NCBI GenBank assembly: GCA_014155875.1
Contig: JACEFZ010002133.1
Span: 115,001 to 179,000 of the forward strand
Direction of reading: 5' to 3'
Origin: Cepaea nemoralis
Taxonomy: Eukaryota; Mollusca; Gastropoda; Stylommatophora; Helicidae
DNA length: 64,000 bases
Program-made: the position numbers and the translations under genes
The notes under the pieces: model-generated
What the model saw: the letters and a program-made list of their open reading frames with translations, nothing else
Told to the model about the DNA's origin: nothing
The model's database searches: none
In this document: positions 14,723 to 40,662 of the stretch, piece by piece
Position numbering within the stretch: the stretch's first letter is position 1
How the letters are laid out: the number at the start of each line of letters is the position of its first letter

Positions 14723-15205
14723 GTGATCGAGAAAGAAAACTTCTCAATAATGGATCGTCTTATAATAAACACGCTACGCTTGAATAAATTGTCAACCTGT
14801 GGTAAAATAGGTAAAATATATATTCAATCTGTGAATCGATGCGGAAACATAACTATTGGAATGACCGAAAAAAAATGGTATGTTTTAATTGCGTTGTTGA
14901 ATAAATTTGACTATTATATCATAAATAAAAAGCCAAAAGGCGGCCGCAATTATTTAACAACTTTATGAAACTGAACGGAATAGAACTTTTAAATGAATTG
15001 GAGAAACATTTGATTGGTGTAGACGATAATAATGAGTATAAAATTCCGGTTTTCAAACCAGATGAAAGTGATGTGAACTCTGTTGAAAATATCCTATGTG
15101 GTGGAGAAATGTGTTTAAAACAATATAATTCATGTTCTCTGAACGATGTCGCAAAATGCTTGTATGTTGGGCATAAAAGGACAAGCGAAAACTCGGGCAT
15201 AAAAA
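14723..15205 (+). pseudogene. AT-rich ORF pieces, probably Maverick-derived, unidentified
   Basis: Two overlapping frames, 14723-14968 (81 codons; contains GKIYIQSVNRCGNITIGMTE) and 14965-15200 (about 78 codons before it meets a different sequence; contains ENILCGGEMCLKQ). I recognise neither. Their composition, orientation and place just upstream of the ATPase suggest genes of the same mobile element. The second frame changes character at about 15205, where a GC-rich block begins, so it is probably cut. Confidence 0.4.
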
Positions 15206-15920
15206 CAACTGGGTCGGGCCGCCGAAAAGGCCTCGTGTTGGCTATGGAACTGCTGAAACATAGATTTGGACATGTCTCGAGAACAGTATGGTTAAAGCGG
15301 TAACTGCATAGCGACTAACGTTGGATCCAATCTCTCAACTAAGAGCAATAACTTGCACTGTCTTGTATCGACTCCATAACCTTCCCCCCGAGCGAGGGTA
15401 GTGCATCTAGGAACATGACTGTTCAGAGGGGCAATCGCCTCATAGTAGAAGCCGTCAAATCATGCAAATCGGCCGAAGTCCAACCTCCATACCAGGGCGG
15501 TAGTCGTCTTCCGTAAGTCGCGCTCAGCTGCAGAGACCAAGAGGTGGGTGGAGGAACCCAGAGGAAGAATCGGCTTCCTAGCGTGCAGCGCCGTGAACGG
15601 GTCACGAAGAAGGAACATGGCAACAAAGACGAACGGAGGCGATAGAGGCCGTGGCTGGGGAAGAAGCAGGCTCCCCACGACCACATGTGCTGGGATGGTG
15701 TGAGGGCACCAAGCAACGTGTGCACAGGCTCTCCTCGCTGAGGGAGGGGAGGCTTGAGAGTGGACATGTTCACTGCTAAGGGGCAGGCACAAACAACAAG
15801 GACAACGAAATCGACCGAACGCCTCGCACGGCATGGGTAAGACGCCCAACGTCATGACCGGACGGGCCCGCCCTTAGAGAATGTTAAGAAGGTAAAAGGA
15901 CCGAAATATTTGGGGAAGGG
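15206..15920. other. GC-rich block of unknown origin inside the AT-rich relic
   Basis: Base composition shifts sharply at about 15205 and back at about 15920. Open frames on the minus strand (to 131 codons) show no domain I recognise. It is probably a later insertion, perhaps a LINE 5' region. Confidence 0.4.
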
Positions 15921-16029
15921 GGGCCACTTCTGACGATCAGAAACTCCCTGCTGTGTTTGCACTGCTGCGGAGTTTTTAATCGCAATATAATGTAGTTAGA
16001 CAGTCTTAGTGAAATAAACTTCGGAGGAT

Positions 16030-16222
16030 TTCAGAAATTGGTCATAGAAAAACTAAAGTATTCACCAAGTTTGATCAGAAAAGTTCGTCAAATGACTAAA
16101 TTATGTACAAAATTTAATAAACTGCAAAATGTTGATATTTATGTAATAGAAGCTATAAAAATTACCCCGACTATTGAGAAAGCATCTGAGCTAAATCCTT
16201 TACAGGAACGCGATTGGAAATG
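16030..16222 (+). pseudogene. Short AT-rich ORF, unidentified (Maverick region)
   Basis: 61 codons, lysine- and isoleucine-rich, ending QERDWK. It sits between the GC-rich block and the packaging ATPase and has the composition of the virus-like genes. Function unknown. Confidence 0.3.
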
Positions 16223-16369
16223 ATTTTTTTTTCATATGTTTACTGGTTGCTATGCTAAGGACCGCTGCTTTTGTAATGTAAAGACACACAATGTTGACAG
16301 GTGGTTATGTTTTTGTGTGAATGTTTATCTCCTTTACAATGGACATAGAAAATCGTGAAGTGATTGTAG

Positions 16370-17413
16370 ACTTTACATTAAAGAAATGACGATCCTCTAT
16401 TACCAAGAAATATAAGGGGGTTAATTATTGGCGACTCTGGGTGAGGTAAAACTATAATACTTTTAAATATGCTTTTTAAAGGATGGTTTTTTTTTTTGCA
16501 TATCCTTTACAGGACATTGCAGTCAACACCAGCATTTTTCAGTTGCTGTTGATGTCTTGGCAAGATTACGCTCAGTAGTTTGCCATTGCTTTCTAAGCGA
16601 CGGGCTTACATACCCCCGTAAGTAGCCAACGCGAAGCGAACCGCTACAGAATCGCATGCAACTGCGTTACCCACGTGAATATACTGGATTACGGAGAAAT
16701 CGTTAACCTCTAGGCCAGGGAGACCGGCAAAAAGATGGTTACATTTTAATAAACTATATGTCCTTGAAAAGGCCCTTCATCGACCTGTATATAAGATAAA
16801 ATAAGTGTTTTGAAGAAAAGATACCCAAATTATCACTATTAAATATCATCAGAAACATAACAGAAATACAGAATACATATATATCTCCATATTCTTTAAT
16901 AGAGAAGTTGCACAATGTGTTAAACAGAAAGAAGGCATAGAGTGTAATTTTTGTGACAGTGCACAAAACGTACTCGATCCACATAAACTCAACACCATAG
17001 ATAAAAAATCTAACAATTTTTGATGATCTTATGCGAGAAAGAAACAAGAAAAGTGTGAAAATTATTATACTAGCTAGATGGAGGCGTAACAACATAGATT
17101 GTTTTATTTAGATCAAAACTACTTCAATGTACCAATACAAAGAATAAGAGAATATACTACAAACAATAAGAGAATATACTAATTTGATTTGCTTGTTTGA
17201 ACACGATGACAGAAATGTATCTAATATATATTATGATTATTCTGGTGGAGACATGCCATATGAAGAATTTAAAAAGCTATGAAGTAAGTGCTGGGAAGAA
17301 CCTTATGGTTTTCTTGTGACTGATAAATCTAGTGATAAATACAATGGAAAATATAGATGTAAATTAGATACCTTTTATTTTCCTGAAAAGACATTATCTT
17401 CCCTTCATTGATT
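16370..17413 (+). pseudogene. Maverick/Polinton packaging ATPase, broken
   Basis: Seen in pieces. Near 16391-16470 is PLLPRNIRGLIIG followed by a Walker A-type GDSG-stop-GKT, where the stop replaces the residue before GKT. Later pieces include a Walker B-like FDDLMRER near 17016, NNIDCFY-like residues near 17085-17110, CLFEHDDRNVSNIYYDYSGG near 17191, and the end piece EEPYGFLVTDKSSDKYNGKY at about 17295-17355. This is the order of the FtsK/HerA-type DNA packaging ATPase of Maverick/Polinton elements and adintoviruses, which pumps DNA into capsids. A SINE (16498-16738), several frameshifts and at least three stops disable it. The next ORF, penton-like, follows at once, as in those elements. 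Confidence 0.75.
16498..16738 (-). repeat. SINE family 2 inserted in the ATPase pseudogene
   Basis: Minus-strand SINE with tRNA-like head at the right ('gccggtctccctggcctaga') and tail at the left ('tcctgtaaaggatatgc'), followed by a run of A on its own strand. 'ggatggtt' (16482) and 'agatggtt' (16732) flank it as a near-perfect target duplication, so it entered the ATPase gene after the element had arrived. Confidence 0.85.
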
Positions 17414-17455
17414 AGAAAAGTGTATGATAAAACTATTATAATTCATTATAAAACA

Positions 17456-17878
17456 ATGGGAGAACTTCTAAAAGAAATAGCCAGAAATGCCAGACCTAAA
17501 TTCTCTGATCAGTTTGTTGTCTCCAGTAATAAAACATCGTATAATACAAAATTTAACGCCCCGTTAGAACCAAATGAATATAAACCCTATAAAATTGCAC
17601 TAGTTGATCTAGAAACTTATTTATTCCTTTCCAAACATTAGTAAAGACAACAAATAGTTTATTTACTCCAAAGACAATGGGAACAGATGGACGATGGACC
17701 ATACAATCAATACCAGAGAGGGCTTATGAAATCAAAGCTATCAATACGAGAATACAAAGTATGACAGGAAAAGATTCTATAAAACTTGAACCAAATAAAC
17801 AAACTTTGAAATCCACCATGACTATTAAACCAGGAAACAAAGTTAGTTTTACAGATTTAAAAAAAAACACTGGCTAAT
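17456..17878 (+). pseudogene. Maverick-type capsid (penton-like) protein, N-terminal part
   Basis: The first frame (MGELLKEIARNARPKF... to LVDLETYLFL, ending 17641) shifts to the frame 17642-17876 (SIPERAYEIKAINTRIQ; KLEPNKQTLKSTMTIKPGNK). This pattern, beta-rich with an 'ETY' segment and a 'YEI..IN' segment, matches the conserved ORF next to the ATPase in Maverick/Polinton and adintovirus genomes, usually considered the penton base or minor capsid protein. A LINE has been inserted at 17878, and the ORF resumes at 18727. The family call comes from memory of the family pattern. Confidence 0.6.
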
Positions 17879-18726
17879 CTATTCAATCAATAATTTGCCA
17901 TGCCGGAAAGCGTGGGCGCCATTTCACTCGATCACTAGTGTCGTGGATCAGCTCAGTGTTCCTGTCTAGTCCATGCCATGTGGCCAAGCCATCCAGATAT
18001 TTTCCTCTTGGTCTGTTCCCTTCGATCTTGCCAGTTGTCACTAAGTTCTCCAGTCCATTTCTTCTCATAACATGTCCAAAAAATGTTGACTGTCTACGTC
18101 TAATTTCTCTAATCAATTTACGATGTTCATTTGTCTCCTGTAGTACCTGGTAATTGGTTTTTCTATATGTCCATGGTATTCTTTGCATTTTCCTCAGAAA
18201 CCACATTTCTGCAGCCATCAGATGTTTTTCAGCTTGACTGCACATTGTCCAAGTTTCACATCCATACAAAAGAACAGGCTCTATGTATCCCTCAACACTC
18301 TTTTTCTCGTTTCAATTGACATCTTTTTATTGGTCAGAATGTTTTTCATCTTGCTAAAGGCTATTTTCGCCATGGCGATTCTTGTTCTAATCTCTTCAAG
18401 GCATCTTCCATCAGATTTTATGACTGTTCCGAGATAATTGTATCGATTCACTTGTTGAAGAATATTCCCATTTACTTGTATATTACATTGTAGTACTTCG
18501 TTCTTCCTAGTGACGGCCATAACCTGTGTCTCTTACAATTTAATTCCAACCCCAGCTGCTCACTGTGGACAACAACCGCGTCTACTAATTGTTGCAGATC
18601 CTGTGCATTGTCTGCAATCAATACTGTATCATCTGCATATCTAATGTTATTTATGTTTCGTCCTCCAATGCTGATTCCATTTATGTCTTCTACATTTCTG
18701 AAAATATTAGGATTCCACAATAACAT
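17879..18726 (-). mobile_element. LINE 3' fragment inserted in the capsid ORF
   Basis: Minus strand. Reads the second half of a reverse transcriptase ORF: NNIRYADDTVLIADNAQDLQ (18611-18670), RYNYLGTVIKSDGRCLEEIR near 18395-18455, YGCETWTMCSQAEKHLMA near 18215-18270, ending with the GHVMRRNGLENLVTTGKIEG region. It matches 36241-37165 closely, with small deletions that shift the frame. The 3' end at the left follows a short 'caatcaat' tail. 5' truncated, like most LINE copies. Confidence 0.85.
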
Positions 18727-19282
18727 TTATGAAGAGGGTACTCACGAATCAGAACACATTGTAAATATTATGAGTGTTAATCCAGTTAAACATCATACAT
18801 GGAAGTTTCTCTAATGGTTCAGGAATTCGAATTATTTATTGTTTCTTCCCAAACGGTTCTCCGGGAGGTAAAATTTTGAGAAACCAAGCAATCTGGTTTT
18901 TCTTCCTGTATCGATGTAGAAATTCTATTGGGGTTGGATTTAGAATTGACCAAGGATATCACCTATCTATCTTAAAATATTCAACTGGTGATTCTGCAGA
19001 CCCCTTGGACTCAATGATTACAACACATAGAGAGACTGCCAGGCAATTTTGTCACAATCGATGAAAACTATAAACAATTTGACAGTAAGAATCACTGATC
19101 AAAATAACAAGCTTTTAAATTTAAGAGATAAAACTGTTATTATAAGATTTCTTATAAGAGAAATTTTACACGTAAAAAATAATTGCACAATTTATGAACA
19201 AGTTAACTTAAATATTTCAGAAAACCAAACAGATAAAATACAAAAAGCCATAAAAAATAATACCCCAGTTGCTAACTATTAG
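18727..19282 (+). pseudogene. Maverick-type capsid (penton-like) protein, C-terminal part
   Basis: Continues the ORF cut by the LINE. Visible pieces: EEGTHESEHIVNIMSVNPVK (18730-18790), CFFPNGSPGGKILRNQAI-like residues in a shifted frame (18840-18900), and NNLTVRITDQNNKLLNLRDK ending in FLIREIL (19070-19170). These segments follow each other in the C-terminal half of the penton-like protein of Maverick/adintovirus elements. At least two frameshifts. The frame ends at 19280. Confidence 0.6.
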
Positions 19283-19289
19283 AATTATA

Positions 19290-19700
19290 GAAACGGGCAA
19301 CGATGTATTAGCATTAACAAAAAGACAAATAAACAAAGGGAAAAAAAACATTATCTCAAAATAAGGGAACTCATATTACTCTGAGTAGAAAACAACTCAA
19401 ATATAACATGAAGATTGATGGAGGTTTTTTAGCGGCTCTAACAAGCATGACCTTATCTCTACTTAAAACAACGAAACCTTAGGAATAGGAGCCTTAACAG
19501 GTTTAGCTTCTAGTGGAGTTCAGAAACTTATTGGCCCCGGTTTGTTTTTAAAACGAGGAGGATGTATTTGTCAAATTGAATAGGATGGAAAAGGCCTTTA
19601 TTTAGGAACAGTAAATGGTAGTGGATTAGAGTCTTGTGGAGATGGGCTATACTTATCAAGAAAAAGTAATATATAAAATGGTGACAGATTTCTAGGTGAT
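19290..19700 (+). pseudogene. Maverick-type conserved ORF (PX-like), broken
   Basis: Pieces in two frames: LALTKRQINKGKKN (near 19312), SRKQLKYNMKIDGGFLAAL (19384-19440), LGIGALTGLASSGVQKLIG (19484-19540), then LFLKRGGCICQIE-stop-DGKGLYLG (19545-19610) and a GLYLSRKSN segment. The glycine-rich hydrophobic run followed by GG-x-C is the hallmark of a small protein encoded beside the capsid genes in many Maverick/Polinton elements (called PX in some schemes; possibly a core or membrane-active virion protein). Stops at about 19580 and 19675 disable it. Confidence 0.6.
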
Positions 19701-19743
19701 TTAGTTAAAATATATAAAATATGCTATTTTAAACTTGATAAAA

Positions 19744-19885
19744 ATGGAAACAAAAGAAAGCATATATCTTCGATTACCTACTGCGCCAATACAAGATCCA
19801 GTAGAAGCCAACAGTTATAGAATTCAGAAGATTCTTGATATTCAAAACTGCTTTGGAAAAAAAATAAAGAAGATAGGAGAAAGAC

Positions 19886-19890
<5 letters not shown>
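19744..19890 (+). pseudogene. Maverick-type ORF (PW-like), N-terminal fragment
   Basis: Starts METKESIYLRLPTAPIQDPV and runs 48 codons to IKKIGERH, where it meets a LINE 3' end at 19887. The remainder of the gene is found 19.9 kb downstream at 39777. The shared 12 bases 'gaaagacattga' occur at both broken ends. Confidence 0.65.
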
Positions 19891-19940
<50 letters not shown>

Positions 19941-20205
19941 TAGGAACCGACATCACAGCATTCGGGACATTCCCATAAGCGCTCCGTCCCCATCCTCAGC
20001 AGCCAGCGAAGAGTTCCAACACTAATAGTTCCAGTAGCAATCTGATTATATGTCCGTCTCGCCTTTCCTCCAAGCGCCGAGCGTCGGCCAGATCCCCACG
20101 TCACACCTCGTTGTCTCATTCTTACCAGACTATGGTGATCCATCTGCTCCTCAGAGGTGTACACGTGCTCCCACAAGGCCGCAACCACGTCTGCAGAAAG
20201 AGTGC
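19887..20205 (-). mobile_element. LINE 3' end with (AATC)n tail, left junction copy
   Basis: Minus strand. The last codons of a LINE ORF2 (HSLVRMRQRGVTWGSGRRSA, then TISVGTLRWLLRMGTERLWE, CPECCDVGS, stop), then AATC repeats (the GATT run at 19889-19939). Extends about 30 bp further 5' than the right-hand copy at 39525-39770, into STLSADVVAALWEHVY. Its 3' tail abuts 'gaaagacattga' of the Maverick ORF. Confidence 0.85.
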
Positions 20206-20598
20206 TTCTGGTAGATCAGGGGAAATTACTGTGGTTATATTTAACTTTTAAAAATGAGAATCACAATTTTCAATGTGGAAAATTAAACTTGCAACATTTT
20301 TCACAGAATGGCAAATTTGAAGCCTCATTGTGGAATTGTGTAAATTTTGCTTATGTGTTGCAACTGTACAAAGTGATAATCTCTGTGTGCTGAATGTGTA
20401 GAAAGTATTAAGACATGGGGATAGCATAGGGAAGCAATGAGGAGTGTTTACAGCTTAAAGATGTAATGATGCTTTCTCCAATAAACATTTCTATGTTGTT
20501 TTATTGTAACACACGTACACGCACAGTTTGTGTATCATATTGTTGGTGTGCTGATTTTGCCTCGTTTTCAATTAAGGGCTCGCCAGATTTGAGTTCCT
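20206..20598. other. Non-coding, nothing recognised
   Basis: AT-rich; no open frame with family resemblance, no repeat shared with other parts of the window. Confidence 0.4.
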
Positions 20599-21235
20599 AA
20601 CTAACATCATTATGTGCCATGCCAATAAGCGGGTCTATCATGTTTCGTTGTTTCACGCAATCACCAGAGTCGTGGATCAGCTCAGTGTTTTTGTCTCAAT
20701 TATGCATGTGACCAAGCCATCCAGATATTTATCTCTCTGCCTTCCCTTGTTCTTTATCCCTCAATCTTGCTAATTGTCACCAAATTCTCCAGTTTATTTC
20801 TTCTCATAAGATGCCCAAAAAATCTTGACTATCTACGTCTAATTTCTCTAATCAGTTTACAGTTTTCATGTATTTCTTGTAGGACTTGCTCATTGGTTTT
20901 TCTGTCTGTCCATGGTATTCTTTGCATTTTCTTCACAAACCACATTTTCACTGTCATTAGATGTTTTTCAGTTTGTCTGCTCATTTTACGTTTCATATCC
21001 TAACAAAAGCACGGGTTCTATGTAGCACTTCAGCACTCTTTTTCTTGTTGCAATTGACATATTTGTATTGGTCAATATGTTTCCCATCTTGCAAAAGGTT
21101 ACCTTTGCCATATCGGTTCTTGTTCTAATCTCTTCAAGGTACCTGCCATCAGATGTTATGACTGTTCCGAGAAAGTTGTACCGATTCACTTGTTTAAGAA
21201 TATTCTCATTTACCTGTATATCCTAACTATACTCC
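20599..21235 (-). mobile_element. LINE 3' fragment, same family as 36241-37165
   Basis: Read on the minus strand it contains MNRYNFLGTVITSDGRYLEE (near 21130-21189), the RKRVLKCYIEPVLLLGYET segment and a decayed GHLMRR-like end. The 3' end near 20605 reads 'atgtgccatgcc', as in the other copies. Many substitutions; no intact frame. Confidence 0.8.
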
Positions 21236-22130
21236 ACAAAATATGCATAAAAACACAGTGATTTTTTCAGTATACTTATATAACTAAAAAAAAAAAAAAG
21301 GTAATTGAGGTTTTTTAGGTTAATTGTTACCGAAAACACTGTTAAAACATTTAGATTTGCTCATAACATTTGAAACATTCCTACCTATATACAGCATGGA
21401 TGCGAATCATTGACAATTTTGCAGTTACAACAGAAGAAAACTTTTAAACTAAAATGTGACAGAACATGTCTTAGAATACCATGGATCAAGCACATGCATT
21501 ATTGAGTACGGGCTTTTGAACTAAAATGTGACAGAAAATGGCTTAGAATACCATGGATCAAGCACATGCATTATTGAGTACAGATAACAACCGTAGACCC
21601 ATCGAGTGCCCGTTGGTCTACACAAATATGCGGCTAGAACCATATACCCAGTACTCCTCAGTGGGTGGAGAAGGGTTCTGGGCTGTACTTTCTCTTATGA
21701 AACGTCAGTGCTTTGCTTTGTTCAGGTGCTAATAAGGGCCAAGTTATGTTTATACCAGTTAATCATTACTCACGGATTAACCAGGGTCAGAGAATCACGT
21801 GACAATTAATGCAGAAGTGTAAAAGACTCAGAAACAGTGATAGTCTGCTAAGATGCAGTGAGAGAAACACCATGCCGCCAGAAGGTGGCGATGGCAAATA
21901 TTGTGTTAGAAAAGTGTACATGAGGGGTGGTAAATCAAATAACTCCACAGGAAATATAAAGAATATTTGCAATAAAAAACAACTAGTAATAATATCCCAG
22001 TAAATACTTAATGGCGTTAACTGCATTTACCAATCCACTAGCTCTTGAAAGTGCTATACAGTTTCCCTTCATTGAGCTGGGTCAGTGACTGCGTTTGTAA
22101 TACTCTCCGCGACTTGAGAGGACCCGGCCA
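21236..22130. other. Non-coding with a 72-bp tandem duplication
   Basis: Bases 21441-21512 repeat at 21513-21584 ('aaaatgtgacagaa', 'ggatcaagcacatgcattat') with few changes. Elsewhere no gene or shared repeat was recognised. Confidence 0.5.
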
Positions 22131-22132
22131 TC

Positions 22133-22390
22133 TCACTCCCAGGGTGTCTCTGTGACAATATGGTTACACCGTCTGAAAGTTGTGGGTTTGAATCTGTCTC
22201 CATCATTCGGTTCATGGGTGCAATTTCTTCGAGACTCCTGGAGGTTGTCGCTGGTACTGCAGAGTTTGTGCCTTGTGCGGTGCTTCTGCAGGTTGTCCCG
22301 TGGAATGAGACCAAGCCATGTGGGATAAAACCTGGTGCAGTGATGTCGATTATCTAGCCGGTGAACAGTGTAAACTCCCGGAAATCCTTC
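22133..22390 (+). repeat. SINE family 1, plus-strand copy
   Basis: Order of parts as in the minus-strand copies: decayed A box 'gtgacaatatggttacaccg', B-box region 'gtgggtttgaatctgtctcc', 'cgagactcctggaggttgtc', 'gagaccaagccatgtgggat' and the tail 'aaaacctggtgcagtgatgt'. Confidence 0.7.
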
Positions 22391-22410
22391 CAGGCATTGG
22401 GTTAGAATGT

Positions 22411-22950
22411 TCTCAAGAACAACAAACAAACGTGAGGAATGTTCTCAAGAGCAACTGGCATATGAGGAATGTTCTCAAGAACAACCGGCATGTGAGTAAT
22501 GTTCTCAAGAACAACTGGCATATGAGGAATGTTCTCAAGAACAACTGGCATATGAGGAATGTTCTCAAGAACAACTGACATGTGAAGAATGTTCTCTAGA
22601 ACAACTGACATGTGAGGAATGTTCTCAAGAACAACTGGTATGTGAAGAATGTTCTCAAGAACAACCGACATGTGAGGAAAGTTCTCAAGAACAACTGGTA
22701 TGTGAGGAATGTACCCAAGAACAACTGGTATGTAAGAAATGTTCTCAAGAACAACTGGTATGTAAGGAATGTTCTTTACAACAACTAGTATGTGAGGAAT
22801 GTTCTCAAGAACAACCAACATGTGAGGAAAGTTCTCAAGAACAACTGGCATCTGGGGAAACTTTTCAACAACTAACATGTGAGGAATGTTTTCTAGAACA
22901 CCTGGCATGTGAGGAATGTTCTCTAGAGCAACTGACATGTGAAGATAAAA
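22411..22950. repeat. 30-bp minisatellite with a palindromic core
   Basis: About eighteen units of 'gaatgttctcaagaacaac' plus 'tggcatatgag', in register at 30 bp. Each unit holds the near-palindrome gttct-ca-agaac. It is open on both strands because the unit is a multiple of three. No coding signal. It begins right after a SINE. Confidence 0.9.
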
Positions 22951-23512
22951 TCGAAGCTATAGAAATATAGACTAAAGGGAAGAATATTATGATAGGAGAA
23001 TAAAACAACTTATTACAGAAACTGGGATTTAAGAAAACTGCTGAAGGGAATGAAGGCCAGAAAATTAAGGTATATCGGCCGTATAAAAGGGTAGAACCTC
23101 TAGTTAAAGGATATGTTTGGGGTACAGTTGGTTGGAAAGCATGGAGGAGGAGCAATACAGGTGAGTGAACAACAACATGGGATGGACTTGAAGAAGCATT
23201 AATGAACGCACCATGACGATATGGGACATAGGAGGGCACATGACCTACTTGGGCCTAATTACAGCAGGACCGTGCGTGTTGTGCTGAATCGTGATCAGGT
23301 TACATTCTATTATGTTTCCCAGGATGTTAAGTTTCAGATCCGGTAAGGCACAGCTCGCTGGTTTTAATGCATAGAAGTTGCCGTGAAGTTGGAACAGCGA
23401 CTAAATTAACTAACTTACTGTCTGAAGCTTCATAATCTGTTTTTCATTTTTGCTGTCATTACCATGAGCTAGTCCTACTGCTATCAGTCAGCTATCTTCC
23501 CGTCTGCCTGAC
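22951..23512. other. Non-coding with a retroposon 3' end
   Basis: 'gttgccgtgaagttggaaca' at 23380 followed by 'actaaattaactaac' matches the 3' end at 13380-13410. The rest is unrecognised. Bases 23508-23512 ('ctgac') are the target duplication of the LTR element that follows. Confidence 0.5.
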
Positions 23513-24168
23513 TGTCAAGGTGTTGGACCGACTAGTGACAGAAGAGGGGCAAGGACTAAGAGGACATAGAGACAGGACCTCTATAAAGGTATAGACAGAA
23601 TACAGACAGCATCCAAGCTAGGACGTAAGAACACTAATTAGACTAGACTCGGGTGGGGACACTAATGTGTTATAGTTAGAACAACGGAGGGACCTACCCG
23701 AGAACAGGGGCGGGTACAATAGGTCACGGAGAATACCGTGACGACGTAAACTAGAGTAGAACTTTAGAGAGTGACGAGTGCTAAGTAGACAGTGCTGCGT
23801 GCAAAGAGAACGGCATGCAGAGTTGCGAACCCCACGAGGAGGTTTGACCACGTGGGCAAGCGACAACCTGAGCGGCTTCAGACAGGGACATGACGGCCTT
23901 CGGACTGAACGTAGTGTTGTTCTGAAGCCATTATCTATTGTTGTGAATGCATGCGATATTTAACGAGAGAGTGATCATGTGTGATAATATGCATTTATAT
24001 ATTATGTAATGAGTGATGATTATTATGATGGTGTGTCAGGCAGAACGCCTTATTTTGATTGTCAGGCTTGCCTGAAATAAACTCTGTATAAAAACATCTG
24101 TGCGAGCGAAGTTGTAATTGAGTTACGGATGATGTGGCCTGATTGTGAGTGAACGCAAGACTGTGACA
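23513..24168 (+). repeat. 5' LTR of retrotransposon 1
   Basis: Starts TGTCAAGGTGTTGG and ends CTGTGACA. Contains a TATA-like 'ctataaagg' near 23580 and a poly(A) signal 'aataaa' at about 24076. Confidence 0.93.
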
Positions 24169-24174
24169 GGCCAC

Positions 24175-24365
24175 ATTCTAATGGTGTCAGAAGCTACTGA
24201 TTGAACACACACCCAAGCGCACGGCTGAGTGGGGAGACAGTCAGTGAAAAGAAAATATCTGACACCAACATTCTAATGGTGTCAGAAGTCACTGATTGAA
24301 CGCATACCCAAGCGCACGGCTAAATCTGAAAACGAGCAGTGAAAGAAAGTCAGCACTAACATTCT
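24175..24365 (+). promoter_or_regulatory. Primer-binding region, present twice (95-bp tandem duplication)
   Basis: 'tggtgtcagaagc' at 24182-24194 and 'tggtgtcagaagt' at 24277-24289 both complement the 3' end of a tRNA-Leu type (..CTTCTGACACCA). The surrounding 95 bp ('attctaatgg', 'acccaagcgcacggct') are repeated. The first site is 13 bases from the LTR, further than the usual 0-3. Confidence 0.6.
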
Positions 24366-29770: not shown

Positions 29771-31506
29771 ACTTCAACGGATAGTTTAGTTGAAACAGTT
29801 GTAGCATTATCCACCATTTAATTAGATTAGAAACCTTTACAATTATTGCTTAGATTTAGAAATGTAGATACTATTTAAATTTAGTTAGTAAAGCATAGGA
29901 AACGGTTCTCTAAAAAGACTGCTACCGATAAAACCATTTAAAGCGGCGAGGTAATATAGTTAGATTTAATTAGAAATGTAATAGATTAGTTGTTAAAATA
30001 ATTTAGAAATTTAGCAATTTGTAACTTTAGTACATTTAAGGGAACTAACACATTTCTCTTACAGAATGTTAATTTAGTTAATTATCTTCCCTTTGAAACA
30101 TCCATAAATTGATACTTAGTTAATTATATACCCATATTTAACAAACAGTTATTATTTAGTTTATTTATTTTAAAATTATTTATTTATTACACCCATTATT
30201 TAGTTAATTAGATTAAGTATATTGTTTAGTTCAGTAACATCCTTTATTTATTAAATAACATCTTTGTTTTACTTAATATCAGAAATTAATAATTTAATTA
30301 ATTTATTTCCCTTTAATATTTATTTAATTTAATTTAGATTAAATCCCTTAGTTATTAGTATTAGACATCATCCCGTAGAATAAGAGTAATGCTAGTAATC
30401 ATCAGTCTAGTGACTGATCAAACCGATTGTACATTACAATAGCTAGAGATAGTTAAACTTATTTAGTTTCTGTTGTATTGCCGTAAGCAATACATTTAAA
30501 ATTGTACATAACAATGTGATATATATGAAACAATTTATTTCGGCTCTATATTGTTTAACACGAGCCCATTTTTACGTCAATGACAAAACTTTTTTAAAAT
30601 TGACAAGGTATGAATGAGTGAATATGAGATGAATATACGGACGAATGAAAGAAGTAAAATTATGAGTGTGAACAGTGGTGCAATTTTTTTCGCACACACG
30701 TGTTTTTATGACTTGTCCGCGTCTTCTGTGTAAACCATGTAAAGTGTGTATTTTTATGTGTGTTATAGTCACTATTGCATTATACGAATGGTTGTTTTCT
30801 AGAATCCCAGATCGGCGAAGTACGTCATAAATTAAGCAAAGGCATCACTTTGTGACGAACATCAACCTACCTGTGATAATGGAAACCTGAATACATCAAT
30901 TATAGACATATAGTTATGTTTCTAATTACAACACAGATAAATTAAATTGTTACACGCAGACAAACAGGAATACAAACAGATAATTATACAAACAACAGTT
31001 GATTTCAAGGGGACGGAACACTGTATCAGGGGACACTACAGACTTAGAATAAGTGGAAGGGCGAGTTGAATATTTAGCCACAAGCGGAAACGAGATAGGC
31101 AAGTATCAGCATACACACAAATAACAAGAGAAGCGAAAGTACATGTCACGGGAGCCATGAATTATAGATTCATGTATTGCATCCTTAACAGGAGCAATTT
31201 ATATTGGGATATCGGAGAATCGGTATTTCGAGGGGCTTAGTTTGTTAACGCGCCCTGGTTCTACACAGCTCCCAAGAGTGTAATGTAATGACTCTTGCTT
31301 AGAGTGAAGACGTGTTAAGCTGATCTAAAACCAGTGGTTAGATACAGCAAATTGTGACCAGACTTATTTGAGACACAAGTGAACCTTAAGATATAGCAGT
31401 GAACCCCTTGACTAAATTAGATCAGACTAATTTTATATGCTACGATGACATTGCGTCACCCTTACTACATTAATCTGGTGACGCAACACGAGGGACGACG
31501 AGAGAA
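29771..31506 (+). other. Long AT-rich 3' region of retrotransposon 1
   Basis: No coding frame with resemblance to any family. 30000-30360 is very AT-rich with many 'ttagtt' and 'atttatt' repeats. 31488-31506 ('cgagggacgacgagagaa') is the purine tract expected before a 3' LTR. Confidence 0.55.
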
Positions 31507-32164
31507 TGTCAAGGTGTTGGACCGACTAGTGACAGAAGAGGGGCAAGGACTAATAGGACATAGAGACAGGACCTCTATAAAGGTATAGACAGAATACAGA
31601 CAGCACCCAAGCTAGGACGTAAGAACAGTAATTAGACTAGACTCGGGTGGGGACACTAATGTGTTATAGTTAGAACAACAGAGGGACCGACCTGAGAACA
31701 GGGGCGGGTACAATAGGTCACGGAGAATACCGTGATGACGTAAACTAGAGTAGAACTTTAGAGAGTGACGAGTGCTAAGTAGACAGTGCTGCGTGCAAAG
31801 AGAACGGCATGCAGAAATGAGAACCCCACGAGGAGGTTTGACCACGTGGGCAAGCGACAACCTGAGCGGCTTCAGACAGGGACATGACGGCCTTCGGACT
31901 GGATGTAGTGTTGTTCTGAAGCCATTATCTATTGTTGTGAATGCATGCGAAATTTAACGAGAGAGTGACCATGTGTGATAATGTGCATTTATATATTGTG
32001 TAACGAGTGATGATTAATATGATGATGTGTCAGGCAGATAACGCCTTATTTTGATTGTCAGGCTTGCCTGAAATAAACTCCGTATAAAAACATCTGTGCG
32101 AGCGAAGTTGTAATTGAGTTACGGATGATGTGGCCTGATTGCGAGTGAACTCAAGACTTTGACA
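31507..32164 (+). repeat. 3' LTR of retrotransposon 1
   Basis: 658 bp against 656 bp in the 5' LTR, same ends, followed by the target duplication 'ctgac' at 32165-32169. Confidence 0.93.
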
Positions 32165-32169
32165 CTGAC

Positions 32170-32524
32170 TAACTTGATTCAGCATCATCACGATGCCCAG
32201 AGTGTCACAACTCTGACACTAACAGCACCATCTATAAAAATACTTCTTAGAAACTCGTTTTCATAGTGGACTCTCCATTTTGTGATGAAATGATTTTGTT
32301 AATGTCGGTCTTTATTGTTTATAATGAATTAAAAGCTGTCAAATCAGATGTTGAACTCATCACATTCTGAGAACATACATTAAACATAGATTCCAAGATC
32401 TTTTATTTATAACAAGCCGCTTGTAGGACCATGTAGAGAATGCGAGGGGGGGGGGGGGGCAAAGACTGAGAACCATTATGCGGAAATAATGATATGTAGG
32501 AGGATCAGCAGGGGGTTCTGGAAA
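32170..32524. other. Non-coding; G run
   Basis: A run of about thirteen G at 32446-32459. No gene or shared repeat seen. Confidence 0.4.
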
Positions 32525-32690
32525 AATCTCGAAACTGAGCGGGAAGACCAGGAGAACTTTCAATCAGATAATCGGTGGGAACGATTTGTAGTATGACTCT
32601 TTGCTGGCCGTTTAACGAGGGACAGAGCGCAAATGGCAATGACCTGAGTGCAGTGATGTCTGTTCTTAACTCAACTTTTCATTCAAATTT
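32525..32690 (+). mobile_element. LINE 3'-end fragment (matches 5150-5290)
   Basis: 'gcgggaagaccaggagaact', 'acgagggacagagcgcaaat' and 'tctgttcttaactcaact' parallel 5150-5290. No coding frame survives. Confidence 0.7.
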
Positions 32691-35035
32691 TAGGAATTAG
32701 TGAACATCGCTGGAGCGGCAAGGGACATTTTACAACTGAAAATGGAAATATTTTCATTATTCTGGTAGAGACGCCGGAGGCCAGAGTGGAGTGGCATTTT
32801 GTTTAGATAAGACAACTGCAAAAGCTTTAATGGGATATAATCCAGTTAGTGATAGAATCCTCACTATTAGACTTAAAGGCCGTCCATAAAACACAACTCT
32901 CATACAGATATATGCACCTACTTCAACAGCAGAGGAGGACGAAATTGAAGATTTTTACAACACACTACAAGACACATTAAATAAGATTGGTCATAATGAT
33001 ATAGCAATAATAATGGGAGATTTTTATGCAAAAGTAGGTGCAGGAAGAGCTGAAAATGATAGACACGTTTTAGGAAAATTTGGATTAGGAAATAGAAATG
33101 ATGCAGGTGACAAATTAATTTAATTTCGCACAGAAAATGAGTTAACGATAGCCAACACACTTTTTAAACAACATCCAAGACGACTCTTCACATGGAAGTC
33201 TCCAGACAGTTTTACCAAAAATCAGATAGATTATATTTTAATACAAAGAAGATGGAGATCAAGCATAACATCTGCAAAAACCTTACGATGTGCAGACTGT
33301 GATACAGATCATCAGTTAATAGAAGCAGATCTGAAATTAAAACTCAAAAAGCTTTCCCGAGGACCAAGGCCACTTCGTTTTGATCTCACAAAAATACCAG
33401 ACGCAAACAACATAGAAGTTAGGAATCGCTTTGGGGGTCTTGATGTCTGTACAAGAAGAAATGACACCTGATGAACTGGCAGTACAAGCTAGAGATATCT
33501 TGATAACTGCAGCCAAAGATTTAATTCCGACCAAGAAAAAGCAACTTAAGCCATGGATTACATCAGACACGTTAGAATTAATAAAACAACGAAGGGAGCT
33601 GAAACAGAAAGGAGATGAATCCGATAGCAGGATGAAGTATAAATCTTTAACTCGAGAAATAAGAAAGAACACAAGAAAGGACAAAAATCAATATATACAA
33701 GATTGCTGTACCAGAATAGAACAATATCATAAGGCTGGAAGAGATTATGAAATGTTCAAAGAAATGAAGTTATTGACAAGAAATGTTCAACCTCAATTGA
33801 ATGTTATCTGTGACAAGATGGGAAATACCTTAACAGAATCTAGACAAATTCTAGAAAGATGGCAGGAGTACTGCAGTGGAATGTATGATATGAGTGATAG
33901 TGAGGATATGAATGAAATACATGAGCCAATGACAGCAGAGACAGAACCTGAACCCTCATTAGATGAAATTGCTTGGGCTATAAGGAACCTGAAGAATGGT
34001 AAATCACCTGGATGTGATGAGATACCAGCTGAACTAATTAAAGCGGGAGGAGAAGAAAGCATACACATATATCATGCATTATGTACAAAGATTTGGAAAT
34101 ATGGTATATGGCCAAAAGATTGGAAGAGAACTATCTTCATTCCAATACCAAAAAAGGGCAACCTGAAATTATGCACTAACTATAGAACTGTTGCCCTGAT
34201 CAGTCATGCAAGTAAAATTCTACTAAAAGTCATAATGCGAAGACTTAGTAAGAAAATGGAAGAAGAGATTAACGTGGTTCAAGCTGGATTTAGACAAGGA
34301 AGAGGAACAAGAGATCACATATTCAACATGCGTTTAATAATAGAGAAGAGCAGAGAATTTAATGTAAACCTATTCTCATGTTTTGTGGATTATTCAAAGG
34401 CATTTGACTGTGTACAGCATCAGAAACTTTGGGAAATCATGAGGTATATGGGCTTTCTATCACATGTAGTACATCTCATAAAAATGCTATATCAAGACCA
34501 ACAAGCAGCAGTTAGAATAGATGGCGAGACATCAGATTGGTTTGACATCAAGCAAGGAGTCCTTCAGGGCTGCGTGCTGTCACCCTATTTGTTTAACCTG
34601 TACGCCGAAAATATAATGAGAAATGTAAGAAATGATATAAACAGGGAGCCATATGATGACCGAAATATCGGCGGTCATGACATACCAGAGATTCGATATA
34701 CTGATGATACAGTATTACTATCCACAACACAGAATGGCATAGAAAACCTAATAGCCTCAACCCAATTAAATAGTGAAAATCACAACTTATATCTTAACAT
34801 AGCAAAAACAAAGATAATGCATACAGATAAAACTACTATGGAGAAAGAAAAATACATTAATGGGAGAAAATTGGAGGTGGTGGAAAATTTTGAATATCTT
34901 GGGTCATTGATTACCAATAATGGTGACACAATGAAAGAAATTAAACGGCGACTATCCATTGCTCTTCAAAGACTAAAACAGATGAATAAATTATGGAGTG
35001 GGACAGACAGAACTACAAAAATTAGATTTTTAAGA
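32691..35035 (+). pseudogene. LINE with endonuclease and nearly complete reverse transcriptase
   Basis: The endonuclease (32691-33440) is in a different frame from the RT and has stops: ISEHRWSGKGHFTTENG, then LIQIYAPTSTAEEDEIEDFY, AIIMGDFYAKVGAGRAE and KNQIDYIL. The RT ORF, 33431-35068, has 545 codons: a Lys-rich linker, LKNGKSPGCDEIPAELIKAG (about 33985-34050), IFIPIPKKGNLKLCTNYRTV, NVVQAGFRQGRGTRDHIFNM, FVDYSKAFDCVQHQKLWEIM, GVLQGCVLSPYLFNLYAENI, RYTDDTVLL (34695-34721, so YTDD in place of YADD) and FEYLGSLITNNGDTMKEIKR. It breaks off after WSGTDRTTKIRFL (about 35034), where a scrap of another LINE on the minus strand joins ('gtctgtccatggcattcttt'), so the C-terminus is lost. Confidence 0.88.
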
Positions 35036-35079
35036 GTCTGTCCATGGCATTCTTTGCGTTTTCTTTAGAAACCACAAAA

Positions 35080-35330
35080 GTTCAGTGAATGCGAAAGATT
35101 CTCAATGCCAATGAATTTCTTCACCTCACGTTTTCTTGACCAGGACTTCTTGAATGATATTGATATAAAGAATTAGACATGGCCGAGGACCAGTGTAACA
35201 ATTTTGAAATGGCTGTTATCCTCGGGGATTTCAACATCAGAGTAGCAACGAGAAGGTGAGTGGTGATACTGGTGGCTATGGCTTAGGTGATAGGAATGAG
35301 AGAGATGACGATGAATAGGCGAAGTGAGCA
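35080..35330 (+). pseudogene. LINE endonuclease scrap
   Basis: 'atcctcggggatttcaacat' (35218) translates to the endonuclease box ILGDFNIRV, then a shifted frame follows with GDTGGYGLGDRNERDDDE-like residues. A short orphan piece. Confidence 0.5.
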
Positions 35331-35479
35331 GGACAAAACCTGGTCTGGCACAGTCAAGGCCTATTTTCGCACTGGCGAAAGGCCGTGCAAGTTTATGGGG
35401 TTTATGTAGACAAATATTATGTTTAAAGGAAGTGTCATTTATGTTTGTAAATTTCATTCCTTTTGATCAAATATTTCTC

Positions 35480-35620
<141 letters not shown>

Positions 35621-35628
35621 ATGCCAAA

Positions 35629-36165
35629 TGCTGGTGCTATTACGTTTACATAGAGAATATTTAAAATATAATAACATGATAGTAATGCCTAGATTGATCA
35701 CTACGCTTATTAATAGCGTTTTAAATTCTGCGGAATTACTAGACATCTAAAAGAAAAGTACCTAGATACCCTATGATAAGGGGACATAAACGTCTAATAT
35801 TGTGACAAGGGAAATTAATTTGAAAAAGAAAATAATATATCTAGTATGCTATCATAATCTTATCTATAAATGTCTTACATTTTCTTGTAGAAATAAAAGA
35901 GTCAGTACTGGAGTCAGATTTAATAACCATACAATAAGACTAATAATTTTGTTATAAAATTTGTTTGTTATCTTTACGTAATTGCATTTTATAATCAAAT
36001 TTTGGACTTTGTCATTTATATTTAATTCTTAAGTTTGTACTTCTAATGATACCTAAGATAAATATATAGATAATATCCCCTCTTTGGGGAAACATTTTTT
36101 TACTGGCCTGCTAGGGCCACACAAAATTTAGAGACAATTAACCACCCCACCCCATACTTTGATAT
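35629..36165. repeat. 530-bp AT-rich duplicated block, copy 1
   Basis: From 'tattacgtttacatagagaa' to 'ccaccccaccccatactttg' it matches 38988-39517 with few changes. It includes a small hairpin 'cccctctttgggg'. No known family; its ends are sharp on both sides. Confidence 0.85.
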
Positions 36166-36240
36166 GAATTCCTAACAATTTGATACATTTAGCTCCTGCG
36201 AAAAGTAAAGACATACTAGACACAGACTAAGAACTGCATC
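36166..36240. other. Short spacer
   Basis: Separates the duplicated block from the LINE tail. Nothing seen. Confidence 0.4.
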
Positions 36241-37165
36241 TTCAATCAATCAATCATGTGCCATGCCGGAAAGCGTGGGCGGTCATGACTCGCCATTTCA
36301 TTCGATCACCAGAGTCGTGGATCAGCTCAGTGTTCCTGTCTCGTCCATGCCATGTGGCCAAGCCATCCAGGTATTTTCCTCTCGGTCTTCCTCTTGTTCT
36401 GTTCCCCTCGATCTTGCCAGTTGTCAATAAGTTCTCCAATCCATTTCTTCTCATAACATGTCCAAAAAATTTTGACTGTCTTCGTCTAATTTCTCTAATC
36501 AGTCTACGATTTTCATTTGTCTCCTGTAGTACTTGGTCATTGGATTTTCTATCTGTCCATGGTACTCTTTGCATTTTCCTCAGAAACCACATTTCTGTAG
36601 CCATCAAATGTTTTTCAGCTTGACTGCACATTGTCCAAGTTTCACATCCATACAAAAGAACAGGCTCTATGTACCCCCTCAACACTCTTTTTCTCGTTTC
36701 AATTGACATCTTTTTATTGGTCAGAATGTTTTTCATCTTGCTAAAGGCTACTTTCGCCATGGCGATTCTTGTTCTAATCTCTTCAAGGCATCTCCCATCA
36801 GATGTTATGACTGTTCCGAGATAATTGTATCGATTCACTTGTTGAAGAATATTCCCATTTACTTGTATATTACATTGTGGTACTTCGTTCTTCCTAGTGA
36901 CGACCATAACCTGTGTCTTCTTACAATTTAATTCCAACCCCAGCTGCTCACTGTGTACAACAACCGCGTCTACTAATTGTTGCAGATCCTGTGCATTGTC
37001 TGCAATCAATACTGTATCATCTGCATATCTAATGTTATTGATGCTTCTTCTTCCAATGCTGATTCCATTTATATCTTCTATATTTCTGAAAATATTTTCA
37101 CTGTATAGGGAAAAAAGATCTGGAGACATTACATATCCCTGCCTAATGCCTCTCTTAATAGGTTG
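36241..37165 (-). mobile_element. LINE 3' half, open reading frame intact (291 codons)
   Basis: Minus strand. MSPDLFSLYSENIFRNIEDI at the start, catalytic INNIRYADDTVLIADNAQDL, QVNRYNYLGTVITSDGRCLE, GYIEPVLLYGCETWTMCSQA, FFGHVMRRNGLENLLTTGKI, TRGRPRGKYLDGLATWHGRD, ending MTAHAFRHGT, stop at 36254. The open frame and YADD box make it the freshest copy of this family here. 5' truncation is at about 37165; the 3' tail is 'gattgattgattga' at 36241-36253. Related copies: 17879-18726, 20599-21235, 40985-41190 (minus) and 42915-43330 (plus). Confidence 0.9.
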
Positions 37166-37785
37166 ATATCTTACTGCATCTTACAAGGGTGAAAGCAAAG
37201 TGTGACTTATTCAAAATGAGAAGCAATTCCAATTCCAGTTCCAATTTTCGAGAAAAAAAAATTCAAAATTCGGTCTCGTCAAACCTGCTTCCTCAGCGTC
37301 GGTTATTGTTGAGATCCGTGGTTGTGTGGATTGTTAGTCCTAATTCATACTGGTTTTATTGGTTCCGCTCTGTTTGTCGGATAAAGTTCTTTTGTGCTGT
37401 CTGGTTATTTTCTTCTGTCTTATGCTGTGTTGTTCTCACCTGGGGCTGGTCCCGGTCATGTTCAGTTCTCCATAAGGACTCGATATTGGCAAAGGCAGAG
37501 AATTTAAGTGCAGTCTCAGGTTGTTCTCCCGGCCACCTGCCCGTCCTCCTCTACGTTCGCTTTCTTGTTTTCGTCATCGGTGTATGGGTTGGTGCGACAA
37601 CAAGACGACCAGGTCTCCCTGTCATCCCCGTTCAGGAGCTCTCCGTTAGAGCCAACTCACCATCCTGCCACTCACCCCGCCACTCAGGTTTTTTTTTTTA
37701 AATTAAAGATATATGTGTATATATACGCACATACATTTTAAAAAAAATAAACATTATAGGCATATAAATATATACAATGTAGGGA
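37166..37785. other. Non-coding block of unknown origin
   Basis: A plus-strand frame of 170 codons (37189-37701) shows no family resemblance and no codon pattern that convinces me. It ends at a T run and an AT-rich stretch. Possibly a retroposon 5' region. Confidence 0.35.
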
Positions 37786-38975
37786 GGTTATGTGGCCTTC
37801 CCAGTTCTGCAGATGAACTGTCTGACCAGCCGCTGTATTTCTGGGTTGCTGTTTATGTGTAGGCACTCCGTCATTGTCAATGGAGTCCCAGCTTTGACGA
37901 AGTGATCTCTTAGCTCCCTTCGTTCACTATTGTACTTGTCGCATGCTAGTAAATAGTGTTCAATGGTGTTGTTTTCTAGGCATGCTCTGCAGAATGGGTT
38001 TTCTCTTGTGTCTTTCCAGTTACCTAGCCTGATTCTCCACAGCTGTCTGTTTGTCGGTGCTTTCATTTTGGTCTTGACTTATGGCTTGTAGCTGGGTTCA
38101 CCCAAGTACTTGTATGCATGGCGATCCTTTAGCGCTGTCTACGCCACTGTTTCCTCCATTCCTGGAGAATGTAGTTTTTGATGATATTCTTCCCTTCTAC
38201 TTTACCTAGGCCTGTGCTGATTTTATTATTGCTGGTTAGTCCTCGTTTCGCCGCTCTGTCTGCTTGTTCGTTTCCCAGGATACCCTTGTTGACTGGTATC
38301 CATCCGATGGTGACTTGGCATCCCATGTATCTGAGGTTGGTGGCTGTCGCTAATATCTCCTCTTTTATGTCGGGTCTGTTTCCTCTAGCGAAGTTCCCGA
38401 GCGTTTGTACTGAGGACAGGGAGTCTGTTAATATACACAGTCTCAGTGGTGGTTTTTCAGCTGCAATCTCCAGGCCTTTCGTTATGGCTACCAGTTCTGT
38501 CGTGCATACTGCTGTCTGGTCTGTTAGTTTGAACTGTTTCTTCAGCTTCCAGATCTGGGACCACTACTCCTGCTCCTACCTGTCCATGTTCGCTCTTAGA
38601 CCCGTCTGTGTATATTATGAGGTTGTCCTTACTGATTTCTTGTATGTACGTCTCTTGCATCTGTGTCCTCCGTGTCCCTGGTGATGGTCTTTGCCAGATT
38701 AGAGTCTGTGAATGGGACTGTTAGTTCCCATGGTGGGATTGTTGGCTTGAACCGGCTAGTCTGTTTCAGGGTTTCTGCTAGCTCGATTTCTTCCTTCATC
38801 TTCTCTGCTGCTTCCCATCCTGCCGGTCTTTGCAGTTTTACTATTGGGATGCCCCCCCCCCCCCCTTTGCTGTGGTTGTCACTGAACGTTTGGTATCCAG
38901 GGTGGTCTTCGTCTTGTGCTATTTACGCCTCAGACTCAGTGGTAGAACACCCAGTGCTACCTCAATGCATTCTTC
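37786..38975 (-). pseudogene. LINE RNase H and C-terminal zinc region
   Basis: Minus strand. RNase H pieces: DNLIIYTDGSKSEHGQVGAG (38577-38640), LCILTDSLSSVQTLGNF-like residues near 38400-38450, and IGWIPVNKGILGNEQADRAA (38240-38300). Then the C-terminal segment MKAPTNRQLWRIRLG.. with FCRACLENNTIEHYLLACDK (37935-37995), a zinc-knuckle-like CX2C..HX4C, ending at 37791. This order is that of I/Jockey-like LINEs with RNase H. Frames are broken between pieces; a C run at about 38855-38870 marks one break. Confidence 0.82.
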
Positions 38976-38987
38976 TCCAGGTAGAAT

Positions 38988-39517
38988 GTTATTACGTTTA
39001 CATAGAGAATATTTAAAATATAATACCATGACAGTAATGCCTAGATTGATCACTACGCTTACTAATAGCGTTTTAAATTCTGCGGAATTACTAGACATCT
39101 AAAAGAAAAGTACCTAGATACCCAATGATAAGGGGACATAAACATCTAATATTGTGTCAAGGGAAATTACTTTAATTTGAAAAAGAAAATAATATATCTA
39201 GTATGCTATCATAATATTATCTATAAATGTCTTACATTTTTTGTAGAAATAAAAAGAGTCATTACAGGAGTCAGATTTAATAACCATTACAATAAGACTA
39301 TTAATTTTGTTTTAAAATTTGTTTGTTATCTTTACGTAATTGCATTTTATAATGAAATTTTGCATTTTGTCATTTATATTTAATTCTTAAGTTTGTACTT
39401 TTAATGATACGCAGGAAATTTGAAGATCACAATATCCCCTCTTTGGGGAAACAATTTTTTACTGGCCTGCTAGGGCCACACAAAATTTAGAGACAATTAA
39501 CCACCCCACCCCATACT
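38988..39517. repeat. 530-bp AT-rich duplicated block, copy 2
   Basis: Matches 35629-36165 in direct orientation. Its right end, 'ccatactttgat', runs straight into the (GATT)n tail of a LINE 3' end, whereas copy 1 continues 'ccatactttgatatgaattc', so copy 2 is cut by that LINE. Confidence 0.85.
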
Positions 39518-39519
39518 TT

Positions 39520-39772
39520 GATTGATTGATTGATTGATTTAGGAACCCACATCACAGCATTCGGGACATTCCCATAAGCGCTCCGTCCCCATCCTCAGCA
39601 GCCAGCGAAGAGCTCCAACACTAATAGTTCCAATAGCAATTTGATTATATGTCCGTCTCGCCTTTCCTCCGAGCGCCGAGCGTCGGCCAGATCCCCTCGT
39701 CACACCTCGTTGTCTCATTCTTACCAGACCATGGTGATCCATCTGCTCCTCCGAGGTGTACACGTGCTCCCA
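39520..39772 (-). mobile_element. LINE 3' end with (AATC)n tail, right junction copy
   Basis: Very similar to 19887-20175 (VRMRQRGVTRGSGRRSALGG; TERLWECPECCDVGS, stop, AATC tail). Its 5' truncation point 'gtgctcccacg' adjoins 'tatgaaagacattga', the same 12 bases that adjoin the tail of the left copy. Confidence 0.85.
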
Positions 39773-39776
39773 CGTA

Positions 39777-40260
39777 TGAAAGACATTGAAAGATAATACA
39801 AAATCTGTATCTATTATTAACGGAAATGATACGGCGTTAACAGCTGCTGCAATAGGTAAGGGGGAAGCAAGAATTGGATTATGAACAACAATTGTTGCAG
39901 CGCCAATAGTTTTAGAAATGGAAATTGCAGCATTAGGAATGGGAACCGGAAGTATTATTTTAAAATATATCGATAAAAAATTAGAATATAAATCTGATAA
40001 ACATAAACAGATTTTAATTGTATCAATTAATACAATTCATAATCATATTTCCTCAACGCTGGAATATGGAAGTATTTCTGAAGAAGAATTTAAACTTATT
40101 TTAGAAGAAGAAAGCACATTTTGAAAGATAAAAGAAAAAATAAGACATCATAGTGTGAAAAAATTGTTAATGTGGATTATTCATAAGAGAAAGAAGAACT
40201 CATACAAAAAAATTAAGAGATTTTTTAGACTCTGCAAAATTAAAGTAGCTGTAAGATTAT
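39777..40260 (+). pseudogene. Maverick-type ORF (PW-like), C-terminal part
   Basis: Resumes the ORF broken at 19890. Pieces: ISIINGNDTALTAAAIGKG-like residues at 39806-39865, a stop near 39880, then a hydrophobic Ala/Gly-rich segment and 39918-40124 (MEIAALGMGTGSIILKYIDK; HNHISSTLEYGSISEEEFKL), then a Lys-rich tail. A hydrophobic 'VAAP' stretch followed by a helical tail with 'ISEEEF' is typical of a conserved ORF in the capsid cluster of Maverick/Polinton elements. It carries stops and a frameshift, and is ended by a SINE at 40273. Confidence 0.6.
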
Positions 40261-40272
40261 CAATGTTTGTTT

Positions 40273-40512
40273 TGCGTATCCTTTACAGGACATCGTTTCG
40301 AGATCAGCATCTTTCAAGTGATTGTTGATTTCTTGGCAAGATTACGCTCAGTAGTTTGCCATTGCTTTCTGAGCGGCCGGCTCATTTACCCCGCAAGTCA
40401 CCAGCGCGGGTAGAACCGCTTCCAATTCTCGCGCGCTGCGAAACCCTGCGTGGATAAACGGGATTACGGAGAAATTCGCGTAACCCCTCGGCCAGAGAGA
40501 CCGGCAGGATTA
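40273..40512 (-). repeat. SINE family 2, best-preserved minus copy
   Basis: On the minus strand: 'gccggtctctctggccgagg' (A box), a tRNA-like 70 bases, 'agaaagcaatggcaaactac', 'gtaatcttgccaagaaatca', and the tail 'gtcctgtaaaggatacgc'. Flanks 'agattatcaat' and 'ggattattaat' look like a decayed target duplication in Maverick sequence. Confidence 0.85.
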
Positions 40513-40662
40513 TTAATAAGATGCAGAAATTTGGCAAAACCAAACCGTTACTTTACAAAAATGGCCTTCTTAAGTACTAAAGATCCAATTTTAAAAAAAA
40601 AGATCCAATGGTGAATGAATATCAAAATACTAAAAGAAACAATCAGTTACATAATCTGGCTA
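40513..40662 (+). pseudogene. Start of a further Maverick-type ORF
   Basis: Residues MAFLSTKDPILKKK (from 40561), then, one frame over, DPMVNEYQNTKRNNQLHN. The DP-x-V-x-EY motif near an N-terminus is shared by a conserved ORF next to the capsid genes in these elements. It is cut at about 40660 where minisatellite sequence begins, the right border of the relic. Confidence 0.45.

Follow-up and report, generated by a model that had tools for sequence, protein, structure and literature searches.

Vertebrate Mavericks, or Polintons, are described with ends of the form (AGT)2//(ACT)2 or (AG)3//(CT)3 and 6-bp duplications, and their genes form two modules, one of polymerase, ATPase and PZ and the other of integrase, minor capsid, PW, major capsid and protease; 96% of 3,511 vertebrate Maverick loci are degraded (PMC8097293). 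PX and PY of Polintons are equated with the penton and the major capsid protein (MCP), respectively (Krupovic 2014, PMC4028283). Adintoviruses, as outlined in PMC11071296, are defined by a B-type polymerase (PolB) with an OTU-like N-terminal domain and a BLASTp-recognisable hexon, and also have an integrase with a chromodomain. Here, we describe what we read as a Polinton/Maverick relic in the gastropod Cepaea nemoralis. The window, i.e. the whole stretch analysed, comprises 64,000 nucleotides (positions 115,001 to 179,000 of contig JACEFZ010002133.1, assembly GCA_014155875.1), and positions are counted from its first letter. A first-pass annotation, made from the letters alone, had placed a Maverick relic there from 14723 onwards.

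We conclude, with a probability of about 0.96, that the window holds a decayed and partial Polinton/Maverick fossil, dead as an element, in a sulfatase intron. The window copy belongs to a known kind of element and has better-preserved relatives in the same genome. Its recognisable parts are listed below; the tblastn queries were 127 open reading frames (ORFs) taken from seven relative copies, none shorter than 100 codons, with a threshold of E 1e-3.

14559-14740, + strand: left subterminal region of the Polinton (local alignment to relatives' ends)
16382-17390, + strand: packaging ATPase of A32/FtsK type, broken, many stops (tblastn with relatives' ORFs, best E 3e-34)
17456-19165, + strand: pseudogene of the penton (minor capsid protein), spread over several frames (penton profile; right end by tblastn)
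19184-19709, + strand: small capsid-cluster gene (middle gene), broken, function not assigned (tblastn with relatives, E to 2e-34)
19744-19890, + strand: PW-like gene, N-terminal part, PTAP kept and YPxL-type motif altered (PW profile; translation)
39778-40154, + strand: PW-like gene, C-terminal part (PW profile, E 5e-8 and 2.3e-38; the match of relative L034 reaches 40262)
40561-40660, + strand: start of what may be the following Polinton gene, truncated by a minisatellite (by eye against relatives' ORF)

The penton profile was built from 37 public homologues, picked from 120 of the 1408 proteins found at E 0.01 in a search with a relative's penton as query, and the PW profile from four public proteins; neither included a sequence from the window. 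Across the 2484 window pieces scanned, the penton profile matches five + strand pieces at 17387-19279, in order (E 2.1e-17, 1e-9, 4.7e-9, 2.1e-9 and 8.1e-9), and the PW profile matches 19705-19887 (E 4.5e-16), 39780-39881 (5e-8) and 39885-40121 (2.3e-38). The best E among decoys, which were 10 reversed, block-shuffled windows, was 0.63 for the penton profile and 0.54 for the PW profile. The profile check that the first-pass annotation had suggested is positive for penton and PW, with both public profiles matching far beyond the decoys. The single pieces are short, and decayed ORFs might in principle resemble Polinton genes by chance; with decoys reaching only E ~0.5 against 5e-8 to 2e-38 for PW and 8e-9 to 2e-17 for the penton, and with the same gene order kept in 28 copies, this explanation has a negligible probability.

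Most genes named in the first-pass annotation hold, some with altered limits. The ATPase pieces (given as 16370-17413) are matched by the relatives' ORFs, and the PW-like gene (19744-19890, continued at 39777-40260) by the PW profile in three places, with relatives reading through the split. The penton ORF given as 17456-19282 is a penton that ends near 19165, not 19282. The 'PX-like' ORF at 19290-19700 is a gene as well, but it starts near 19184 and its name falls: since the published PX is the penton, this middle gene is a further small capsid-cluster gene. The last gene is called PW-like, its identity with the published PW being putative. For the ORF said to start at 40561, the likeness to a relatives' ORF is visible by eye, but tblastn with the relatives' ORFs at E 1e-3 gave no match there. 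A stretch of ~150 bp at 18910-19060 is absent from the relatives aligned there.

On the left, the starting point of 14723 had been set too far in, as the relatives' match begins near 14559. Local alignment scores at 14559-14740 were 85 with C6327, 94 with C1360 and 73 with the right end of C9843 (shuffle maxima 31, 34 and 33). Two candidates for the outer end were rejected: the left end of C9843 reached 34 at 14358-14390 (shuffle maximum 28), a score too low to accept as a terminal repeat, and the left end of C23257 scored 29, under the shuffle maximum of 32. At 14666-15303, two ORFs on the + strand, one of 100 and the other of 124 codons, overlap each other.

Relatives were sought in the whole genome (3.47 Gb, 26,579 contigs) with the penton end, the middle gene and PW each queried as DNA, and a copy was counted where penton and PW matches lay on one strand within 6 kb. 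The window itself, second pieces in C25568 and C17446, and 45-bp middle-gene pieces in C23825, C23650 and C3849 were left out of this count. Penton and PW occur together on 28 other contigs, penton first in every one, and a middle-gene match lies between them in 26. Compared with 27 or 28 of these relatives, the window copy has a mean identity of 75% in the penton end, 76% in the middle gene and 82% and 80% in the two PW parts, while the relatives share 88-92% on average among themselves; the window copy is thus either an outlying older branch or a faster-decayed copy. The C-terminal part of PW is at least 95% alike in 128 of the 378 relative pairs, and short pieces of certain copies agree with each other at 98-100%.

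The relatives also hold genes that identify the element. Pfam matches were obtained for the ATPase of one relative (Pox_A32, E 6.1e-9), an rve integrase in one (PF00665, E 9.8e-11) and the double-jelly-roll (DJR) capsid protein (PF21738, E 2.1e-49). Among the matches listed, the DJR capsid protein is present in 13/28 copies and a B-type polymerase (PF03175, above cut-off) in 3/28, at a constant place, in a whole-genome search in which PF03175 was scored for 91 of 296 candidates and PF21738 for 126 of 380; a PF03175 match in C1135, ~113 kb from the penton, was left uncounted. ATPase, penton, DJR capsid protein and rve integrase lie on one strand and the B-type polymerase on the other. Both ends were seen in C9843, where the inverted repeats are ~210 bp long and a target duplication of 6 bp is present, and which begins with AGTAGT and ends with AGTACT; among the seven copies in which inverted repeats were sought, it alone gave an end pair. 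The 28 copies are the outcome of the same-genome search recommended in the first-pass annotation.

In 4/7 copies (C9843, C17446, C15381 and C6327), self-complementary segments of 130-150 bp were also observed, 1.8-3.7 kb upstream of where the C-terminal part of the penton matches. Genome-wide, at least 95 PF03175 and at least 134 PF21738 matches were counted, with a single gene giving more than one match in some cases, along with 151 PW-like matches; the window's family is included in these counts. There seem to be larger Polinton families in the genome as well, with many open frames (polymerase 1,200-1,400 residues, capsid 470-500).

The structure model of a public penton homologue folds like the mavirus and adenovirus pentons, and the PW model contains helices only (mean predicted local distance difference test score 53). 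Mavirus is a virophage. The penton model also matches models of mavirus, adomavirus LO5 and giant-virus minor capsid proteins, as would be expected if another capsid-bearing element (a virophage, an adomavirus-like virus or a giant-virus fragment) had been endogenised in place of a Polinton. We consider this very improbable, given that relatives with the same cluster carry an rve integrase, a DJR capsid protein and an opposite-strand PolB, and that one of them has terminal repeats and a 6-bp duplication.

Several results weigh against the assignment to Polintons. Neither polymerase, integrase, MCP, protease nor terminal repeat was detected in the window copy, so its membership rests on its relatives. 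Its outer terminal repeat was sought with the C9843 ends, which had no window match at E 0.01; the ORFs at 14723-15303 had no counterpart at E 1e-3 among the 127 tblastn queries from seven relatives; Pfam and PHROGs gave no useful match on the window's own pieces; and no relative emerged from the viral contigs, which were scanned using penton and PW pieces as well as alignments A1 and A2. Among the relatives, a listed PF03175 match is missing near 25/28 copies and a listed PF21738 match near 15/28, Pfam called no polymerase in five ORFs taken by eye as polymerase pieces, and the one candidate protease ORF (L038:5509-5994) had no protease match in Pfam. When the C-terminal penton piece of the window was used as a protein query, four candidates came up, none at E 1; this may reflect decay, because a relative's penton found 1408 proteins. 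The relatives' MCP and polymerase ORFs had no window match at E 1e-3 among the matches listed (40/44 outside the relic). The relatives' integrase ORFs matched the window, among the matches listed, only at 57.2-57.6 kb (E 7e-9 to 3e-7), and these matches were assigned to an adjoining strong retrotransposon match at 57558-59903. The copy is accordingly partial, as first annotated, with no polymerase B or integrase visible.

The decay of the copy is evident from its nested insertions.

~16483-16728: short dispersed repeat inserted in the ATPase (alignment to relatives)
17883-18708, - strand: long interspersed nuclear element (LINE) fragment inside the penton gene, with 89-91% identity to the L034 and L036 copies
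19891-39777: insertion of 19.9 kb splitting PW, with nested retroelements and a 12-bp target duplication, GAAAGACATTGA, outside its edges
40262-40505: short dispersed repeat behind PW, 85.9% identical to a repeat in L034

Two observations identify the step from 19890 to 39778 as an insertion: relatives are continuous across it (L034 1-676 pairs with 19251-19890 and 665-1156 with 39778-40262), and the 12-bp GAAAGACATTGA stands at both edges. Each edge also carries a direct copy of a short repeat that has a TTGA tail, and the two copies share 96.9% identity over 256 columns. In the simplest reading, a retroelement entered PW and later insertions followed in or beside its tail; an origin by recombination is an alternative that we do not prefer. 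Together with stops and several frames, the LINE, the short repeats and the 19.9-kb insert agree with the earlier description of a dead element with nested insertions.

The host gene is represented by three exon pieces, and a minisatellite flanks the relic.

10866-11015, + strand: host sulfatase exon piece, GTAAGT directly 3' (Pfam Sulfatase E 0.002, 17.9 bits, below the cut-off of 25)
~13857-13955 (left edge approximate), + strand: host sulfatase exon piece (translation)
42548-42745, + strand: host sulfatase exon piece, IHTGLQH...GKWH... (Pfam Sulfatase E 5.9e-10)
13935-14037, + strand: 43-nt minisatellite, left array, starting on the end of the second exon piece and the 5' splice site (Tandem Repeats Finder (TRF); sequence)
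40660-40840, + strand: right array of the same minisatellite family (TRF; 76.7% identity to the left array over 103 columns)

The second piece contains CSPTR, which we take to be a sulfatase motif; a Pfam search of 13857-13940 by itself gave no match. With three sulfatase exon pieces on the + strand, the Polinton relic therefore sits in the intron between the second and the third, and the placement in an arylsulfatase-type intron is upheld. Because the minisatellite begins at the exon end and 5' splice site, splice-donor-like units recur in it, and GATATCAGGTA occurs three times in the window. The family present at 13935 resumes at 40660, so the relic with its nested inserts is read as lying inside that array. 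A separate tandem array, with 86 copies of a 30-bp unit, occupies 642-3222. The capsid pieces share the strand of the host gene and lie inside its intron, which could suggest that the host co-opted a capsid gene and that the locus is domesticated and no fossil. This is very improbable for a locus in which the penton runs over several frames and is interrupted by a LINE, an insert of 19.9 kb splits PW, and the ATPase contains many stops.

From established Polinton biology, an integrase would have pasted the linear Polinton into DNA, the polymerase would have replicated it through protein priming, and its packaging would have been the work of the capsid genes. In this reading, the window copy entered what is now the sulfatase intron, after which its outer left end and most of its right side disappeared, and the LINE, the short repeats and the 19.9-kb compound insert gathered while stops and frameshifts built up.

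The PW of the window's Polinton family begins with the pattern [LI]YPx[LI]PTAP, in which a YPxL-type motif directly precedes PTAP. Both motifs are found in 23/28 genome copies (PTAP in 25, the YPxL-type in 25) and in all three public homologues that include the N-terminus, the fourth lacking it. Shuffling of the first 40 residues produced the joint motif in 2 to 5 of 200000 trials, and it is present in one of the relatives' 127 ORFs (a PW), 0/2484 window pieces and 0/120 other proteins. The late domains of human immunodeficiency virus type 1 (HIV-1) Gag p6 are PTAP and LYPXnL (PMC2651531). By analogy, PW may carry putative ALIX-type and TSG101-type late domains, and Polintons would then exit cells via the host endosomal sorting complexes required for transport (ESCRT), as HIV-1 does; we offer this tentatively and think it rather unlikely. 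Against it, most copies have YPPI instead of YPxL, and the copies are not independent. Further, PTAP was found in none of five sampled PW starts of apparently two other Polinton families in the genome, so the tandem motif is a feature of one clade at best. No paper combining 'late domain' with 'adintovirus' was found in queries that, in their wider form, were not exhaustive, and 'Polinton' and 'ESCRT' do co-occur in print; the main text of PMC11071296 contains neither 'PTAP' nor 'ESCRT'. If the late-domain reading were true, whether Polintons form cell-leaving particles would become testable by a simple binding assay. As a fossil, the window copy is ordinary, and its greater value is as a pointer to the many open-frame polymerase and capsid matches of the host genome.

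Among the known systems, the mavirus penton (PDB 6g41) is distant, with ~11% sequence identity. Adintoviruses are likewise animal-associated, and the relatives described here share with them an integrase, a polymerase, a penton and a hexon-like capsid protein. No OTU match was obtained in the by-eye polymerase ORFs scanned in relatives, whose N-termini are incomplete there, and the single integrase ORF examined, which is possibly truncated, gave no chromodomain match at E 1. The first-pass label 'adintovirus-like' is taken as tentative. The endogenous Mavericks of placental mammals are also remnants fixed in a host genome, but, as reported in PMC9683012, they differ in being dated by orthology. 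With the Polintons/Mavericks of animals, the relatives have in common the ATPase, penton, DJR capsid protein, rve integrase and B-type polymerase, and C9843 resembles vertebrate Mavericks in its AGTAGT start, AGTACT end and 6-bp duplication. The gene order, which the first-pass annotation had equated with that of Mavericks, differs from the vertebrate modules, in which the ATPase belongs with the polymerase (PMC8097293), whereas here it precedes the penton on the same strand and heads the capsid module; a further difference lies in the extra ankyrin and phospholipase A2-like genes of the relatives.

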